A stretch of 9,895 nt of DNA from Betaproteobacteria bacterium. Its GTDB lineage: Bacteria > Pseudomonadota > Gammaproteobacteria > Burkholderiales > Burkholderiaceae. The stretch is from contig JAGWXN010000114.1 in the NCBI GenBank assembly GCA_018969885.1, positions 1 through 9,895 on the forward strand, given 5' to 3'. This document shows, in pieces, positions 2,234 to 9,024 of this stretch. The position numbers and the translations under genes are program-made. Within the stretch, counting starts at the first letter, position 1. Each line of letters opens with the position of its first letter. The notes beneath the pieces were generated by a model that was not told where the DNA came from, searched no databases, and was given only the letters and a program-made list of their open reading frames with translations.

Positions 2234-2285
2234 CCCCTGACGGCGAAGGGGCTACAGTTCCGCTACGATGCGGATCGATCTCATC
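2234..2285. other. Two small inverted repeats upstream of the first dehydrogenase gene
   Basis: CCCCT (2234-2238) pairs with AGGGG (2247-2251). Further right, GATG (2267-2270) and CATC (2282-2285) flank the self-complementary octamer GATCGATC (2273-2280), with one base out of perfect symmetry. TACGAT at 2264-2269 could serve as a -10 but has no good -35 at normal spacing. These sit in the divergent gap just upstream of the ribosome binding site for the gene at 2310 and could be operator sequence; short repeats like these also occur by chance in GC-rich DNA. Confidence 0.25.
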
Positions 2286-2309
2286 AGAAGCGCGGATAGG
2301 GGGGTGACA

Positions 2310-3200
2310 ATGACAACGAAGCCGATCGGATTCGTGGGTCTGGGCAATATGGGCGGGCGCATGACACGCCGACTGGTGGCCGGTGGGCTGAGTGTGCTCG
2401 GTTTCGACGTTCGCGCCGGGCAGGCTGAGCAGTGCGGCGCAACGCCTTCCTCGTCCATCGCACAGATCGCGCAGGCCTGTGACCTGATCCTGCTGTCGCT
2501 GCCTGATAGTCATGCCGTGGAAGCGGTGGTCGAGGGTGATGCCGGCCTTCTCGCGTATTGCCGAGCAGGGCAGACCATCGTCGATCTCTCCACGGCGGCG
2601 CCGCGCTCCACGCGCCGACTTGCCGCCCTCTTTGCAGCGCGCGGCGCGGTGTTGGTCGACGCAGGCATTTCGGGGGGCGCCGCCGCTGCCGACAAGGGAA
2701 CCCTCACGCTCATGATCGGCGGCCCGGCGGGTGTAGACGGCACGCTTGATCCGGTGTTCCGGCACTTTGCTGCCAAGGTGGTTCACATGGGCGAAACCGG
2801 GAATGGCCACGCCACCAAACTGCTCAATAATTTTCTGAATGCGGTCACGCTCGCTGCGACCGCAGAGGTCATGGTCGCCGGCCGCAAGGCCGGACTGGAT
2901 CTTCAGCAACTTCTCGACGTGATCAACAGCAGCAGTGGCGTGAACTTTGCGAGCCTCAACCGCTTTCCCCATATCATTCGGGGCAATTATCTGGAAGGCG
3001 GGCTCACCGGCAAGCTCATGACCAAAGACATCGTGCTCTACGCCGAAATGGCGAGTGAACTCGGTATCGCTTCGCTCAACGCGGCCGGTCCGCTGGCAAG
3101 CTTTGGCCTTGGAACGGCGCTGGGCTATGGCGACCAGATCAGTAATCGGGTGGTCGACGCAATCGGCGACGCCAGTGGCGGTGTTCGGGTAAATGGCTGA
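2310..3200 (+). CDS. NAD(P)-dependent beta-hydroxyacid dehydrogenase, HIBADH family (copy 1)
   Basis: The product (296 residues, normal length) belongs to the 3-hydroxyisobutyrate dehydrogenase-like family: cytoplasmic enzymes oxidising beta-hydroxy acids, or reducing the corresponding semialdehydes, with NAD(P). The ATG at 2310 is preferred because a run of G's (AGGGGGG) ends about five bases before it and the Rossmann motif begins at residue 6; an upstream in-frame ATG at 2268 gives an unlikely 14-residue extension. Visible motifs are G-F-V-G-L-G-N-M-G (7-15), L-L-S-L-P (61-65), substrate-loop D-A-G-I-S-G-G (117-123, where the common form is D-A-P-V-S-G-G), G-x-G-x-x-x-K-L-L-N-N with the expected catalytic Lys170, and K239-D in the C-terminal domain. 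Isoleucine in place of valine and glycine in place of proline in the substrate loop are mild departures. It leads a four-gene run, with 32 bases to the next gene. The substrate is not identifiable. Confidence 0.93.
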   Translation: MTTKPIGFVGLGNMGGRMTRRLVAGGLSVLGFDVRAGQAEQCGATPSSSIAQIAQACDLILLSLPDSHAVEAVVEGDAGLLAYCRAGQTIVDLSTAAPRSTRRLAALFAARGAVLVDAGISGGAAAADKGTLTLMIGGPAGVDGTLDPVFRHFAAKVVHMGETGNGHATKLLNNFLNAVTLAATAEVMVAGRKAGLDLQQLLDVINSSSGVNFASLNRFPHIIRGNYLEGGLTGKLMTKDIVLYAEMASELGIASLNAAGPLASFGLGTALGYGDQISNRVVDAIGDASGGVRVNG

Positions 3201-3232: not shown

Positions 3233-3616
3233 ATGAAAGTGATGCATGCGCGCCAGGAAGGCGCCAATTCGGAAATGCGTGGCGGCACCTTTACCGGCGG
3301 TGTGTGGGGAGACCCGGTCATGCCCTTCACCCAGGGTGTCCAGATCAATAACGTGTTTTTCTCGCCAGGTGCTCGCACCCACTGGCATCAGCATGAAGTG
3401 GGACAGGTGCTGCATGTGGTGGGCGGAAGCGGATGGGTGTGCGAGGACGGCCACGAACCCCAGCGCATCCGGACCGGCGATGTCGTCTGGATCGGACCGG
3501 GCGAGCGTCACTGGCATGGCGCCGATACCAACAGTTTCATGATGCATCTGGCCATTTCAATCGGTAAAACCGACTGGAAGGAGCCGGTGACCGATGCCCA
3601 GTATGTGAAGGGCTGA
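3233..3616 (+). CDS. Small single-domain cupin resembling cupin hydroxynitrile lyases
   Basis: The product (127 residues) is a single cupin barrel. AGGAG sits seven bases before the ATG. The first metal motif is T-H50-W-H52-Q-H54 followed by Q58 four residues later; the second is G-E-R-H93-W-H95-G, then H105. As I recall it, the Mn-dependent cupin hydroxynitrile lyase of Granulicella tundricola uses two His, a Gln and a further His in the same order and spacing, with the additional H-W-H-G and M-x-H-L-A-I segments also shared; the C-terminal W-x-x-x-V-T-D-x-Q-Y is another shared feature. Most relatives in genomes are simply called cupin-domain proteins and sit beside redox enzymes, so a natural role in cyanohydrin chemistry should not be assumed. 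It is most likely a cytoplasmic metalloenzyme acting on an intermediate of this pathway. Only 17 bases separate it from the SDR gene. Confidence 0.9.
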   Translation: MKVMHARQEGANSEMRGGTFTGGVWGDPVMPFTQGVQINNVFFSPGARTHWHQHEVGQVLHVVGGSGWVCEDGHEPQRIRTGDVVWIGPGERHWHGADTNSFMMHLAISIGKTDWKEPVTDAQYVKG

Positions 3617-3633: not shown

Positions 3634-4356
3634 ATGTCTGCCTCATCGCATAAAAGAACGATTCTGGTCTCGGGTGCCTCGGCCGGTATCGGCCGGGCCT
3701 GCGCGCTCATGCTTGCCCGTCGCGGTGATACCGTGATTGCGATGGGGCGGCGTCTGGATGCGCTGCAGTCGCTGGCCAACGAGGCGCCCGCCGGATCGAT
3801 CGAAGTGCTTCCTGGCGATCTCAACGACAAGGCTTATCTTGATCAGGCCGATGGCCACTTCGCGCGGTGCGACGTGTTCATCAATAACGCGGGGGTGTTG
3901 CGTTATGCGCCGCTCATGGATCTGTCCGACGACGACATCGCCTGGATGTTCCAGACCAACGTCATGGCGGCGGTACAACTCACGCGCCGCGTTGCCCGGC
4001 ATATGGTGGCCAGGCAGTCCGGCCACATCGTGTTCATGACCTCCATCGCTGCGCGTGAGGTCTACCGGCTGGCCTCGGGTTACTGCGCCACCAAGCACGC
4101 GCTCTCCGCATTTGCGCGCTCGTTCCGGCTCGAACTGCAGAGTTTCGGCATCAAGGTCACCGAGGTGGCGCCCGGTATGGTTGACACCAACATCCGCGAA
4201 GGCAGTGACCATCCTGCGGTCGTTGCCGCCATGCAGGCGCGTCGCTTTTCGCCGCTCACCTCCGACGAGGTGGCCAGTGCGGTGGTCTATGCGCTTGAAT
4301 CCACGCCCAACCTCTGCCCCGATCTCATCGAGCTGAGGCCGTTGGGCTCTGTCTGA
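3634..4356 (+). CDS. Short-chain dehydrogenase/reductase (classical SDR)
   Basis: The product (240 residues) is a classical SDR, a cytoplasmic NAD(P)-dependent oxidoreductase acting on an alcohol/ketone pair. AAAGGA lies eight bases before the ATG. The cofactor motif G-A-S-A-G-I-G is at 14-20, an acidic D62 follows the third strand region, and N-N-A-G is at 84-87. The catalytic tetrad appears complete: N109, S137, Y150 and K154 (Y-C-A-T-K), followed by the P-G turn at 180-181. The basic pair R39-R40 after strand 2 favours NADP(H), an inference from known SDR patterns. The C-terminus is short, as in the cytosolic YdfG-like group. It sits 17 bases after the cupin gene and 20 before the next, so it is probably translated from one transcript with both. 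The substrate is unknown. Confidence 0.94.
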   Translation: MSASSHKRTILVSGASAGIGRACALMLARRGDTVIAMGRRLDALQSLANEAPAGSIEVLPGDLNDKAYLDQADGHFARCDVFINNAGVLRYAPLMDLSDDDIAWMFQTNVMAAVQLTRRVARHMVARQSGHIVFMTSIAAREVYRLASGYCATKHALSAFARSFRLELQSFGIKVTEVAPGMVDTNIREGSDHPAVVAAMQARRFSPLTSDEVASAVVYALESTPNLCPDLIELRPLGSV

Positions 4357-4376
4357 CGTTTTCCCGGAGATCCCCC

Positions 4377-4922
4377 ATGGCCACTGCAGCGAAGGCCGCC
4401 AGCAAGGCGGCTGCGAAGAAACCGGCAGCGAAGAAAGCTGCGGCAAAGCAAGCCGCCGCAAAGAAGCCCGTAGCCAAGAAGCCCGTAGCCAAGAAGCCCG
4501 CTGCGCTACCGACCCTGAAGGTACCTGCGGTCACCCGCTGGAAGCCACAGACATTCATGGCCGCGCACGCGAGCGACAAAAGCCAGCAGTTTCGGAAAGG
4601 CCTTCGTTCCTACGCCTCGTACCGCGATCTGGGAATCAGCAAGGCAACTGGTGGCGTGGTCCAGGCGCATGTCATTCGACTGCACGGCCCCTGCGATCCG
4701 GCGGTGGTGTCGATCCGTCATCTTCATGGCGTCCAGTTCCAGTTCCTGTACATGCTCAAGGGCTGGATGGAGGGCGAATACAACGGCCGTCGCGAGCGCT
4801 TCGAGGCAGGCGCCTGCTGGATCCAGCCCAATTCGATCCCGCACACGGTGCTCGATTATTCCGACGACTGCGAGATGATCGAGCTGATTCTTCCCGGCAC
4901 GTTCGAGACCCGCGAGCTCTGA
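4377..4922 (+). CDS. Cupin-domain protein with N-terminal histone-H1-like Lys/Ala/Pro tail
   Basis: The product (181 residues) has two parts. Residues 1-43 are almost entirely Ala, Lys and Pro with A-A-K-K-P and V-A-K-K-P repeats, like the disordered DNA-binding tails of bacterial histone-H1-like proteins, AlgP and PhaF-type phasins. From about 70 onward it is a small cupin: Y-R-D-L-G-I-x-x-A-T-G-G (82-93), A-H-V-I-R (97-101), R-H115-L-H117, F-Q-F-L-Y-M-L-K-G-W (121-130), and a second motif around I-P-H156. That order matches a widespread uncharacterised cupin family in which the protein usually starts just before the Y-R-D-L-G-I segment. The start at 4377 is supported by GGAG seven bases upstream and a 20-base gap to the SDR gene; the next in-frame Met (residue 62) has no comparable signal. 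The tail suggests nucleic-acid or polyanion binding; this is inference. It ends the operon. Confidence 0.88.
   Translation: MATAAKAASKAAAKKPAAKKAAAKQAAAKKPVAKKPVAKKPAALPTLKVPAVTRWKPQTFMAAHASDKSQQFRKGLRSYASYRDLGISKATGGVVQAHVIRLHGPCDPAVVSIRHLHGVQFQFLYMLKGWMEGEYNGRRERFEAGACWIQPNSIPHTVLDYSDDCEMIELILPGTFETREL
4461..4500 (+). repeat. 15-bp perfect tandem repeat inside the Lys/Ala tail (2.7 copies)
   Basis: AAGAAGCCCGTAGCC occurs at 4461-4475 and 4476-4490 without mismatch and continues for ten more bases at 4491-4500. Each unit encodes the pentapeptide K-K-P-V-A in frame. The unit length is a multiple of three, so gain or loss of copies would lengthen or shorten the tail without a frameshift. Upstream, the same amino-acid pattern is encoded by less identical codons, so the exact repeat is probably a recent duplication. 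Confidence 0.95.
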
Positions 4923-5077: not shown

Positions 5078-5971
5078 TCAGGCCTCGTTCGGCTTGATCA
5101 CCACGCCCATTCTTGCTTCAACAAACTGGGCAATCCGTGTGAAGTCGTGAGGGCCGCCGTACACCTCGTTGGTTTGTCGCCAGATTTCATGGACGGCATC
5201 AGCCACCGGCATGTTGGCGCCCAGCTCCGCTGCCTCGCGCATGCAGAGATCAACATCCTTGAACATCAGCGCGGTGGCAAAACCGAAGTCGAAGGTGCGC
5301 GGCAAAACAGCCTTTGGGAACTTGTCGCGGCTCGCGGTATTCATGCCGCTCCCCGCATTGATCACATCGATCATGATCTTGGGGTCTAGCCCGGCTTTCA
5401 CCCCCATCGCCACCGCCTCGGAGGTGATGGCCATTGATGCCGCCGACACCAGGTTATTGGCGAGTTTCATGGTCTGCGCCATGCCGGGCTCGGCGCCGAT
5501 ATAGAAGAGCTTGCCGATGTGACGCAGCACATCGGAGAGGCGCTCGAAGCTTGCCTTAGGCCCCGATACCATCACCGCGAGCGTGCCCTTGATCGCACCG
5601 TTTCGTCCGCCCGATACCGGTGAATCGATGAACTCGATGCCCCGCGCAGCGAGTGCAGTCTGAACCGAACGCGCCATTGAAGTGCCGGTGGTGGAGAGGT
5701 CCACCACCGTTCGCACTACGCTACCGTGAATGAGACCAGTCGCCGACGTGCAGACGTCGTTTACGATCTTCGGCGTGGGCAGTGATAGCAGCACCGTATC
5801 CACCTGGTCGCCCACCTCGCGCACTGAGGCGGCAACCTTCGCGCCACGGGCAGCCAAAGCCTGGGCGGCAGCAGGGTTGACATCAAACACAACCAGCGTG
5901 TGCCCGGCATCGAGCAGGCGCTCGGCCATGGGCACACCCATGGCTCCCAATCCGATGAAGCCCAGATTCAT
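5078..5971 (-). CDS. NAD(P)-dependent beta-hydroxyacid dehydrogenase, HIBADH family (copy 2)
   Basis: The product (297 residues) is a second, clearly different member of the 3-hydroxyisobutyrate dehydrogenase-like family. The start at 5971 follows GGAG by six bases and places the Rossmann motif at the usual position: G-F-I-G-L-G-A-M-G (4-12). Other hallmarks are L-L-S-L-P (61-65), D-S-P-V-S-G-G (116-122), K-G-T-L-A-V-M-V-S-G (128-137), M-K169-L-A-N-N with the expected catalytic lysine, and F-K238-D in the C-terminal domain. It keeps the canonical P-V-S-G-G loop, unlike copy 1, and the two chains differ widely outside motifs, so they are not a recent duplication. Family members include tartronate semialdehyde reductase and 3-hydroxyisobutyrate, 2-(hydroxymethyl)glutarate and gamma-hydroxybutyrate-type dehydrogenases; I cannot choose among them. 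It stands alone on the minus strand, divergent from the ligase gene. Confidence 0.94.
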   Translation of the reverse strand: MNLGFIGLGAMGVPMAERLLDAGHTLVVFDVNPAAAQALAARGAKVAASVREVGDQVDTVLLSLPTPKIVNDVCTSATGLIHGSVVRTVVDLSTTGTSMARSVQTALAARGIEFIDSPVSGGRNGAIKGTLAVMVSGPKASFERLSDVLRHIGKLFYIGAEPGMAQTMKLANNLVSAASMAITSEAVAMGVKAGLDPKIMIDVINAGSGMNTASRDKFPKAVLPRTFDFGFATALMFKDVDLCMREAAELGANMPVADAVHEIWRQTNEVYGGPHDFTRIAQFVEARMGVVIKPNEA

Positions 5972-6034
5972 TGCAATCTCCGAGATACGCGGCTGACCCG
6001 GTCGGTCATCGCCGATCAGGCCGAAGGATCGCAT

Positions 6035-7742: not shown

Positions 7743-7795
7743 TCGGCTGAGGCTGACACAGATTTTGCATCGAATTCTCAATGGAGATCTGCCAG

Positions 7796-8596
7796 ATGAC
7801 ACTCCCCAATTACGAAATTTACGCGGTCAAGTATGCGCACCACGACCGCAGTTCGCGCGACAACTTTGTGGGCGGGGACAGCCATGACGTGCCCATGCCG
7901 CTTGATTACTTTGTCTGGGCGATTCGGGGCGGCGGTCGCACGTGGGTGCTGGATACCGGGTTTTCCGAGGAGGTTGCCAAGCAGCGCGGACGCGATTTTC
8001 TCCGCTGTCCCGGACAGGGGTTGTCACTGCTAGGAATCGATCCCGAGTCGGTGAGCGATGTCATCATCTCGCATATGCATTACGACCACGCCGGCAATGC
8101 GCAGCTTTTCCGGCGGGCGCGCTACCACCTGCAGGACCGCGAGATGCAGTTCGCAACCGGGCGCTGCATGTGTTTCAAGCCCATGCGTTTTCCGTTCGAT
8201 GTGAATGACGTGAAAGCCATGGTCGACCGGGTGTTCGAAGACCGCGTGTGCTTTCATGATGGTGACGACGAAATCGCGCCAGGCATCACGCTCCACCGGG
8301 TGGGCGGCCATACGATGGGATTACAGGTGGTACGCGTCCATACCCGCCGCGGGTGGGTGGTGCTTGCGAGCGACGCCTCGCATTTCTACGCGAACATCGA
8401 GTCCGATCGGCCGTTTCCGCTCATCTACAACCAGGCCGACATGCATGAGGCCTATCGGCGCGTTTATTCGCTTGCCAGTTCTCCGGCGCATGTTATTCCT
8501 GGCCACGATCCACTGGTCATGAAGCGCTATCCGGCGCCCAGTGATGCCCTGCGCGGCATCGCAGTGAGGCTTGATGCCGATCCGATCGCCGACTGA
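7796..8596 (+). CDS. Metallo-beta-lactamase-fold hydrolase, N-acyl-homoserine-lactonase-like
   Basis: The product (266 residues) is a cytoplasmic metallo-beta-lactamase-fold hydrolase, expected to bind two metal ions. The ATG at 7796 follows GGAG by nine bases; an upstream ATG at 7781 contains that GGAG and is less likely. The signature H93-x-H95-x-D97-H98-A-G is followed by G-G-H172, the bridging D193 in A-S-D-A-S-H-F-Y, and H237 in P-G-H-D. That complete set and the length match the AiiA/AttM lactonase branch, whose members open acyl-homoserine lactones or other lactones. Y198, five residues after D193, may correspond to the catalytic tyrosine of AiiA (three after the Asp there), but the spacing differs. 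In this catabolic operon a pathway lactone or thioester is at least as likely a substrate as a quorum signal. It lies 53 bases after the ligase gene. Confidence 0.92.
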   Translation: MTLPNYEIYAVKYAHHDRSSRDNFVGGDSHDVPMPLDYFVWAIRGGGRTWVLDTGFSEEVAKQRGRDFLRCPGQGLSLLGIDPESVSDVIISHMHYDHAGNAQLFRRARYHLQDREMQFATGRCMCFKPMRFPFDVNDVKAMVDRVFEDRVCFHDGDDEIAPGITLHRVGGHTMGLQVVRVHTRRGWVVLASDASHFYANIESDRPFPLIYNQADMHEAYRRVYSLASSPAHVIPGHDPLVMKRYPAPSDALRGIAVRLDADPIAD

Positions 8597-8634
8597 TTCA
8601 GGCTTTCCCACCATTGCGTTTCAAGGACTCCACC

Positions 8635-9024
8635 ATGTCAGCCTTTCCTGATGAAGACTGGTTCAGGGCCTATCAGGCCCGCGTCAACGCCGATCGAGAA
8701 CTCGCAGTGATCGGCAACTGGTTCAGTGCGCGTTTCTCGATCACTGTGGGTGACACCCGCCGCGTGCTCACGGTTGAACAGGGGCGCATCAGCCAGATCA
8801 ATTTCGCGCCGCGCTTTGATGCCCGTCCCGCTTTCGGGTTCCGGGCGCCGATGGACACCTGGGCCAAGTTTGTGAGTGCCACGCCGCCGCCGCTCTATAA
8901 CGACTTCTTCGCCATGCTGATGCGCGTGCCCGAGTTTGTGCTGGAGGGGGACGGTCTGGTCGCCATGCAGAACGGCCGCGCACTGCAGCGGATGATGAAC
9001 CTGATGCGAAAGGAAGCCGCATGA
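8635..9024 (+). CDS. SCP2 sterol-carrier-like domain protein
   Basis: The product (129 residues) looks like a single SCP2-fold domain, a small cytoplasmic protein with a hydrophobic pocket for fatty acyl-CoA, sterols or other lipids. The ATG at 8635 follows AAGGA by seven bases. The layout is right for the fold: a helix (8-20), strand F-S-I-T-V (34-38), strand R-V-L-T-V-E-Q-G-R-I (43-52) in the place of the usual 'v.dG' hairpin, a helix with the W-A-K-F segment (76-79) followed by P-P-P, then F-V-L-E-G-D-G-L-V-A (101-110), the typical 'G.l.leGd' end, and a last helix. There is no enzyme motif. Family membership is by layout, not a diagnostic signature, so the confidence is moderate. Its last codons overlap the start of the hydrolase gene (ATGA at 9021-9024), which suggests coupled translation and possibly a working partnership. 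Confidence 0.75.
   Translation: MSAFPDEDWFRAYQARVNADRELAVIGNWFSARFSITVGDTRRVLTVEQGRISQINFAPRFDARPAFGFRAPMDTWAKFVSATPPPLYNDFFAMLMRVPEFVLEGDGLVAMQNGRALQRMMNLMRKEAA

Follow-up and report, generated by a model that had tools for sequence, protein, structure and literature searches.

The tailed cupin gene and its neighbourhood

The DNA analysed here, a stretch of 9,895 nucleotides that we call the window, carries on its forward strand an open reading frame of 181 residues (4377–4922, +) that starts with ATG and is preceded, 7 nt upstream, by the sequence GGAG (4366–4369, +), read as its ribosome binding site. The encoded protein falls into two parts. Residues 1–52 (4377–4532, +) form a basic, histone-H1-like Lys/Ala/Pro tail, predicted to be disordered and free of acidic residues, and residues 53–181 (4533–4919, +) form a cupin core recognised by Pfam, by structure matches and in the AlphaFold2 model. 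The fusion of a cupin to a tail of this kind, as put forward in the original prediction, was confirmed, the tail now comprising residues 1–52 instead of 1–43. In the AlphaFold2 model the core was confident, while pLDDT lay below 50 for residues 1–33 (predicted disorder). Both parts of the protein remained below the Pfam cut-offs: HC2 (PF07382) matched residues 6–59 with E 1.8e-6 and 28.7 bits (cut-off 40), and Cupin_2 matched the core with 25.3 bits against a curated cut-off of 27.2. The curated threshold of NF038052 (HC2) was also missed (20.3 against 135 on the whole protein), and PF07883 was precomputed on most of the close homologues among the matches listed.

The core is predicted to adopt the small beta barrel of the cupin fold, according to the AlphaFold2 model and to matches with many cupin structures. 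Its closest solved structure, PDB 2o8q, is Bxe_C0505, a Burkholderia xenovorans cupin of unknown function; unlike the window protein, this 134-residue chain, matched from its residue 10, has no tail. Cupin metal sites usually combine an HxH motif, a Glu and a later His. In the tailed cupin, motif 1 contains the putative ligands His115, His117 and Gln122 (codons within 4719–4742, +) and motif 2 contains His156 (4842–4844, +). All four residues were invariant in 29/29 aligned proteins, and Gln122 occupies the position where the cupin motif expects Glu. We read this set of three His and one Gln as probably a metal site, and the tailed cupin as probably a metal-dependent enzyme with both metal and catalysis putative. 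The manganese hydroxynitrile lyase GtHNL (4bif; NF049940) is a small cupin, as is the tailed protein, and its metal ligands are three His and one Gln. However, the (R)-mandelonitrile lyase model NF049940, matched by the other cupin of the operon (3233–3616), gave no match on the tailed protein at E 0.01.

Upstream of the tailed cupin and on the same strand, a conserved run begins with a 3-hydroxyisobutyrate-dehydrogenase-like gene (2268–3200, +; Pfam and NCBIfam), continues with a tailless, mandelonitrile-lyase-like cupin (3233–3616, +) and reaches a short-chain dehydrogenase (SDR) identified by Pfam (3634–4356, +), 20 bp upstream of the tailed cupin. The tailless cupin scored 127.3 bits with NF049940 against a cut-off of 140 and matched 4bif with E 2.2e-25; these matches make it a candidate lyase. 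The order 3-hydroxyisobutyrate dehydrogenase, mandelonitrile-lyase-like cupin, SDR and tailed cupin was found in the window and in four genus relatives, with 18–21 bp between the last two genes. The SDR–cupin pair was also present in the alphaproteobacterial G1017 (21 bp apart, SDR 53% identical), with acyl-CoA ligase, thiolase-like and CoA-transferase genes in the vicinity.

Surroundings differed in the Bradyrhizobium family. Of 30 larger loci from this family, neighbours were counted in the 28 where the script displayed the core (L168 and L171 were excluded, since the ORFs that the script retained there included no core): groEL was among the neighbours in 18/28 (10/10 + 8/18). In 10 loci usg was the gene directly upstream and stopped 85–159 bp short of the cupin. 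The genes usg, groES, groEL and that of a nucleoside transporter were recognised by their families on L143 and L145. In addition, a gene that we take from its sequence to be thiL-like neighbours the tailed cupin in five loci of this family. The tailed cupin is not tied to one catabolic operon.

These data bear on the regulatory role suggested by the original prediction, in which a DNA-anchored cupin would sense a pathway metabolite and act as the missing regulator of the operon. Cupins can serve as sensor domains, and the tailed cupin is the last gene of the conserved metabolic run in the genus, both of which speak for such a role. Against it, a lysine-rich tail confers no sequence choice, the gene lies mostly elsewhere in the Bradyrhizobium family, near groEL or the thiL-like gene in the loci counted above, and no DNA-binding regulator domain was detected in the protein: Pfam returned HC2, Cupin_2 and DUF6083 only at E 0.01 and NCBIfam gave no regulator-type match. 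Without one fixed catabolic operon around the gene, the regulator idea is left without its basis. We consider it very unlikely and, given the lack of a regulator domain and the differing surroundings, set it aside as main reading.

Several other genes accompany the run. A second 3-hydroxyisobutyrate-dehydrogenase-like gene (5078–6034, −) exists beside that at 2268–3200 (+), and both are kept in the five genus loci. An ORF of 242 residues (369–1097, −), for which we found no Pfam or NCBIfam match at E 0.01, is conserved next to a TctC-type binding-protein gene in 3/5 genus loci. A small ORF (8614–9024, +) is kept in 5/5 genus loci, its orthologue L034:5705–6094 being without Pfam match. The gene at 7781–8596 (+) has a metallo-beta-lactamase fold and resembles quorum-quenching lactonases, but its scores fall far short of the cut-offs for these (63.5 against 375 for AiiA).

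Conservation and distribution of the tail

Two homologue searches, one with the core alone (best 120 of 5824) and one with the whole protein (best 120 of 1702), were merged into a set of 158 proteins including the query. At least 25 residues preceded the core in 153/158 proteins among the matches listed, query included. Tails tabulated by identity band contained 50 acidic residues in 9761, again in proteins among the matches listed. Five of the 158 were exceptions: three begin within the core region and one begins 12 residues ahead of the core, and these four may represent clipped starts, near relatives being tailed. The fifth, P0125, has an acidic N-terminus of 18 residues. A further core-only search from a Bradyrhizobium protein (best 120 of 7987) found the tail in 119/120; search words of both core-only searches were drawn from the core, not from the tail. 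One homologue, from a betaproteobacterium, aligned with 75% of the query at 93% identity. The original prediction had named as signs of an annotation artefact homologues that all lack the tail and an absent ribosome binding site at 4366–4369; we found the tail on close homologues and the site in place. Its view that the tail is likely translated is in agreement with this site and with the tailed close homologues, and from these signals the tail is very probably translated.

We further analysed, at the DNA level, 49 distinct genes with the tail. Their tails measured 24–89 residues (median 49) and carried a net charge of +10 to +28, with D+E amounting to 0.6% in tails versus 13.9% in cores. A ribosome binding site was located at the tail start in 46/49, a count helped by the start-choosing script, which favours such sites. 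Base composition contributes to the basic character: tail frame +2 gave a K+R fraction of 0.354 versus 0.345, but 2.8% acidic residues. Tails were then compared in 67 pairs whose cores are at least 85% but less than 100% identical; the pairs overlap, and their alignments favour like residues. Single-base differences in the tail were K-R 40, K-Q 32 and K-E 1, and at Ala A-V 40, A-E 1 and A-D 0. Of these 67 computed pairs 60 were listed, and 59 of them had a lower dN than dS in the tail. Four independent ungapped tail pairs, with few substitutions, showed K-R 2, K-E 0 and two acidic changes. Sequence and length of the tail vary fast and its charge is kept.

For phylogenetic analysis, 313 sequences were reduced to 214 distinct cores, each 110 residues or longer, and these to 114 at 93% identity, five rows with non-basic N-terminal stretches being scored as tailless. 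The basic tail needed three changes on the 114-core tree versus a shuffled mean of 38, on a tree made from few columns with many forks open and by a count blind to gain versus loss. One clade with support 100/100 holds the tailed rows (54/60 members) and spans Beta- and Alphaproteobacteria; its six tailless rows are L053, L039, L040, L051, L006 and P0125. In our reading, this distribution suggests a single gain of the tail, then losses.

Could the tail stem from wrong annotation or from the neutral expansion of a repeat? Its low complexity, a 15-base unit coding for KKPVA that recurs near the end of the window's tail and the equally basic frame +2 would fit this explanation. However, the ribosome binding sites at the tail start, the mixed Ala codons in the tail of the window's gene, the presence of the tail throughout a clade spanning two classes and the low dN all argue against it. 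We regard this origin as extremely improbable and set it aside on the grounds of conservation, ribosome binding sites and codon mixture. On this sequence evidence, the tail is a true feature of the protein family.

The family alignment matched 56/399 genomes of the order and 21/398 of the phylum at E 1e-25. Among the 30 order loci read for tails the basic tail was that of G001 only, and among the 22 phylum loci so read 11 were with and 11 without it, L102 and L052 duplicating G001 in these two sets. In the window's own family, 8/74 genomes matched at E 1e-40. The tailed gene was found in 4/5 genomes of the window's genus; G001, the nearest genome compared, shares 31% of sampled words with the window. 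In the family of G457, the Bradyrhizobium family, 99/248 genomes matched at E 1e-40 and the tail was present in 40/40 loci read for tails. The core was present in 112/117 Bradyrhizobium genomes and in 107/109 good ones. The groESL of G457 (Bradyrhizobium, genus g252) is 96.8% identical to groESL of Bradyrhizobium plasmids. Comparison of plasmid records with the query protein gave 20 matches, all below 60% identity and none covering 80% of the query.

A second, dissimilar tailed cupin

In the genus relatives G005 and G002, the gene directly before the dehydrogenase of the tailed-cupin cluster encodes a Cupin_2 protein with an acid-free, K/A/T-rich tail at its C-terminus. The core of this second cupin showed no significant similarity to that of the first (best E 0.42). 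The C-terminal tail was observed in 7/7 loci whose cores are about 70% identical or more, a count that includes the query's locus and comprises three loci in the genus and four in another family of the order; it was found in 0/30 more distant loci read, all below 50% identical. The tailed genes are L032:6794–7540 (+), L035:10885–11598 (−) and L213:5929–6582 (+), with further loci L192 and L218–L220. Their tails are of Lys/Ala/Thr or Lys/Ala/Pro type and acid-free. In L035 and L213 the tail is mostly a KAT triplet repeat, whose length looks likely to change easily. The second-cupin genes have TRAP transporter, fumarylacetoacetate hydrolase or acyl-CoA ligase-like genes nearby. Close linkage of the two tailed cupins is not obligatory, since G003 has the second one on a different contig and only distant relatives of it were found in G001.

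We also looked for similar stretches in other proteins. An acid-free basic stretch of 40 residues occurred in 28/477 distinct ORFs, a control covering the ORFs of 29 loci as predicted by a simple script; these 28 were 25 tailed cupins, the second cupin twice and one other. HC2-like stretches were few, 0–4 per genome in 10 genomes, and the cupin's own tail was among them in five.

Tentatively, two dissimilar cupins of one catabolic cluster could each have gained a histone-like tail, at opposite ends, and so gather pathway steps on the nucleoid or on polyphosphate, the N-terminally tailed member being kept near-universally in Bradyrhizobium. We consider this scenario unlikely; if true, it would mean a polyanion-tethered metabolic assembly.

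A putative electrostatic tether

Lysine-rich disordered tails are already known on DNA-processing, nucleoid and granule proteins. Tails of the KPAA type, as in AlgP and PhaF, bind DNA, and AlgP sits on polyphosphate granules, where its KPAA tail is required for granule spacing (PMC9239181, in extract). A protein of HC2 type is abundant on the PHB granules of Herbaspirillum (PMC3783465, in extract). In bacteria, lysine-rich low-complexity regions go with DNA binding, and metabolic proteins of eukaryotic proteomes are said to be poor in regions of this kind (PMC6821194, in extract). On DNA, Dps makes use of flexible N-terminal ends (PMC4433220, in extract).

The likeness to Lys/Ala/Pro tails of nucleoid and granule proteins, drawn by the original prediction, is a fair one. 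The Pseudomonas proteins AlgP and PhaF have, like the window protein, a disordered, Lys/Ala/Pro-rich and acid-poor tail. However, the AlgP tail is C-terminal, about 150 residues long and carried by a helical domain (PMC9239181, in extract), whereas that of the tailed cupin is N-terminal with 24–89 residues; proteins of the AlgP/PhaF phasin type are marked by a helical or phasin domain that ends in a long KPAA tail, an arrangement not found in the tailed cupin. The window tail shares the HC2 composition (PF07382), at a score below the cut-off. In Herbaspirillum, HC2 comes with no other known domain (PMC3783465, in extract), unlike the cupin-borne tail. Similarly to Dps, the tailed cupin would present a flexible basic N-terminus on a small metalloprotein, the cupin's metal being putative. 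Dps has a ferritin-like fold and a much shorter tail than the tailed cupin. In the present case such a tail is kept on a small metabolic-type protein across a clade spanning two bacterial classes. Databases name this protein just as a cupin, and none of the titles and abstract openings listed in the literature searched, a scope without subscription papers and preprints, concerns a tailed cupin.

We propose that the tail is probably a real device holding the enzyme on DNA or another negatively charged polymer. A translated, selected, disordered N-terminal polycation would act as an electrostatic tether, which would hold the folded core on a cellular polyanion without reading sequence, in a mode likened to that of the flexible Dps N-termini and of the PhaF/AlgP KPAA tails. 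This reading is drawn from the translation signals, the kept charge, the low acid content, the predicted disorder, the clustering in one clade and the tail on the second cupin. The partner would most probably be chromosomal DNA. The full proposal, in which charge holds a putative metal-site enzyme on a polyanion, with DNA as the likeliest one, appears to us about evenly balanced. Basic tails are also able to attach to RNA, polyphosphate or membranes, which counts against DNA as the partner. Also against the tether, base composition accounts for part of the tail's basic character, and the tail is lost or absent in 6/60 clade members and the core can therefore do without it. We would rank DNA first and polyphosphate or PHA granules second, a role without target being possible.

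Binding of the tail to the surface of a polyphosphate or PHA granule would place the enzyme at a storage granule, as the granule association of AlgP and of the Herbaspirillum HC2-type protein would suggest. However, composition alone cannot tell DNA from polyphosphate, no granule gene was found among the subset of neighbours with a family look-up, and the study of the Herbaspirillum granules does not use the word cupin in its main text (PMC3783465, in extract). We judge a granule location quite unlikely.

A charged disordered tail could also lack any target and serve solubility, folding or turnover of the core. The fast-changing sequence and length with constant charge, together with the existence of tailless members, are consistent with this. 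On the other hand, such a bristle could equally be acidic, and the near-absence of acidic residues, together with the comparable tail of a dissimilar cupin, indicates a need for positive charge. This explanation seems unlikely to us. The contribution of such a tail to an enzyme is directly testable, as tailed and tailless relatives occur side by side, even in one genome.

A tailless paralogue was indeed observed within the window's genus, at L039 (G005), L040 (G001), L041 (G003) and L051 (G002), with about 57% identity to the closest core in the set. It constitutes a natural tailless partner within the same genomes as the tailed cupin. In L040, the tailless paralogue is followed by a gene in the fumarylacetoacetate hydrolase cluster.
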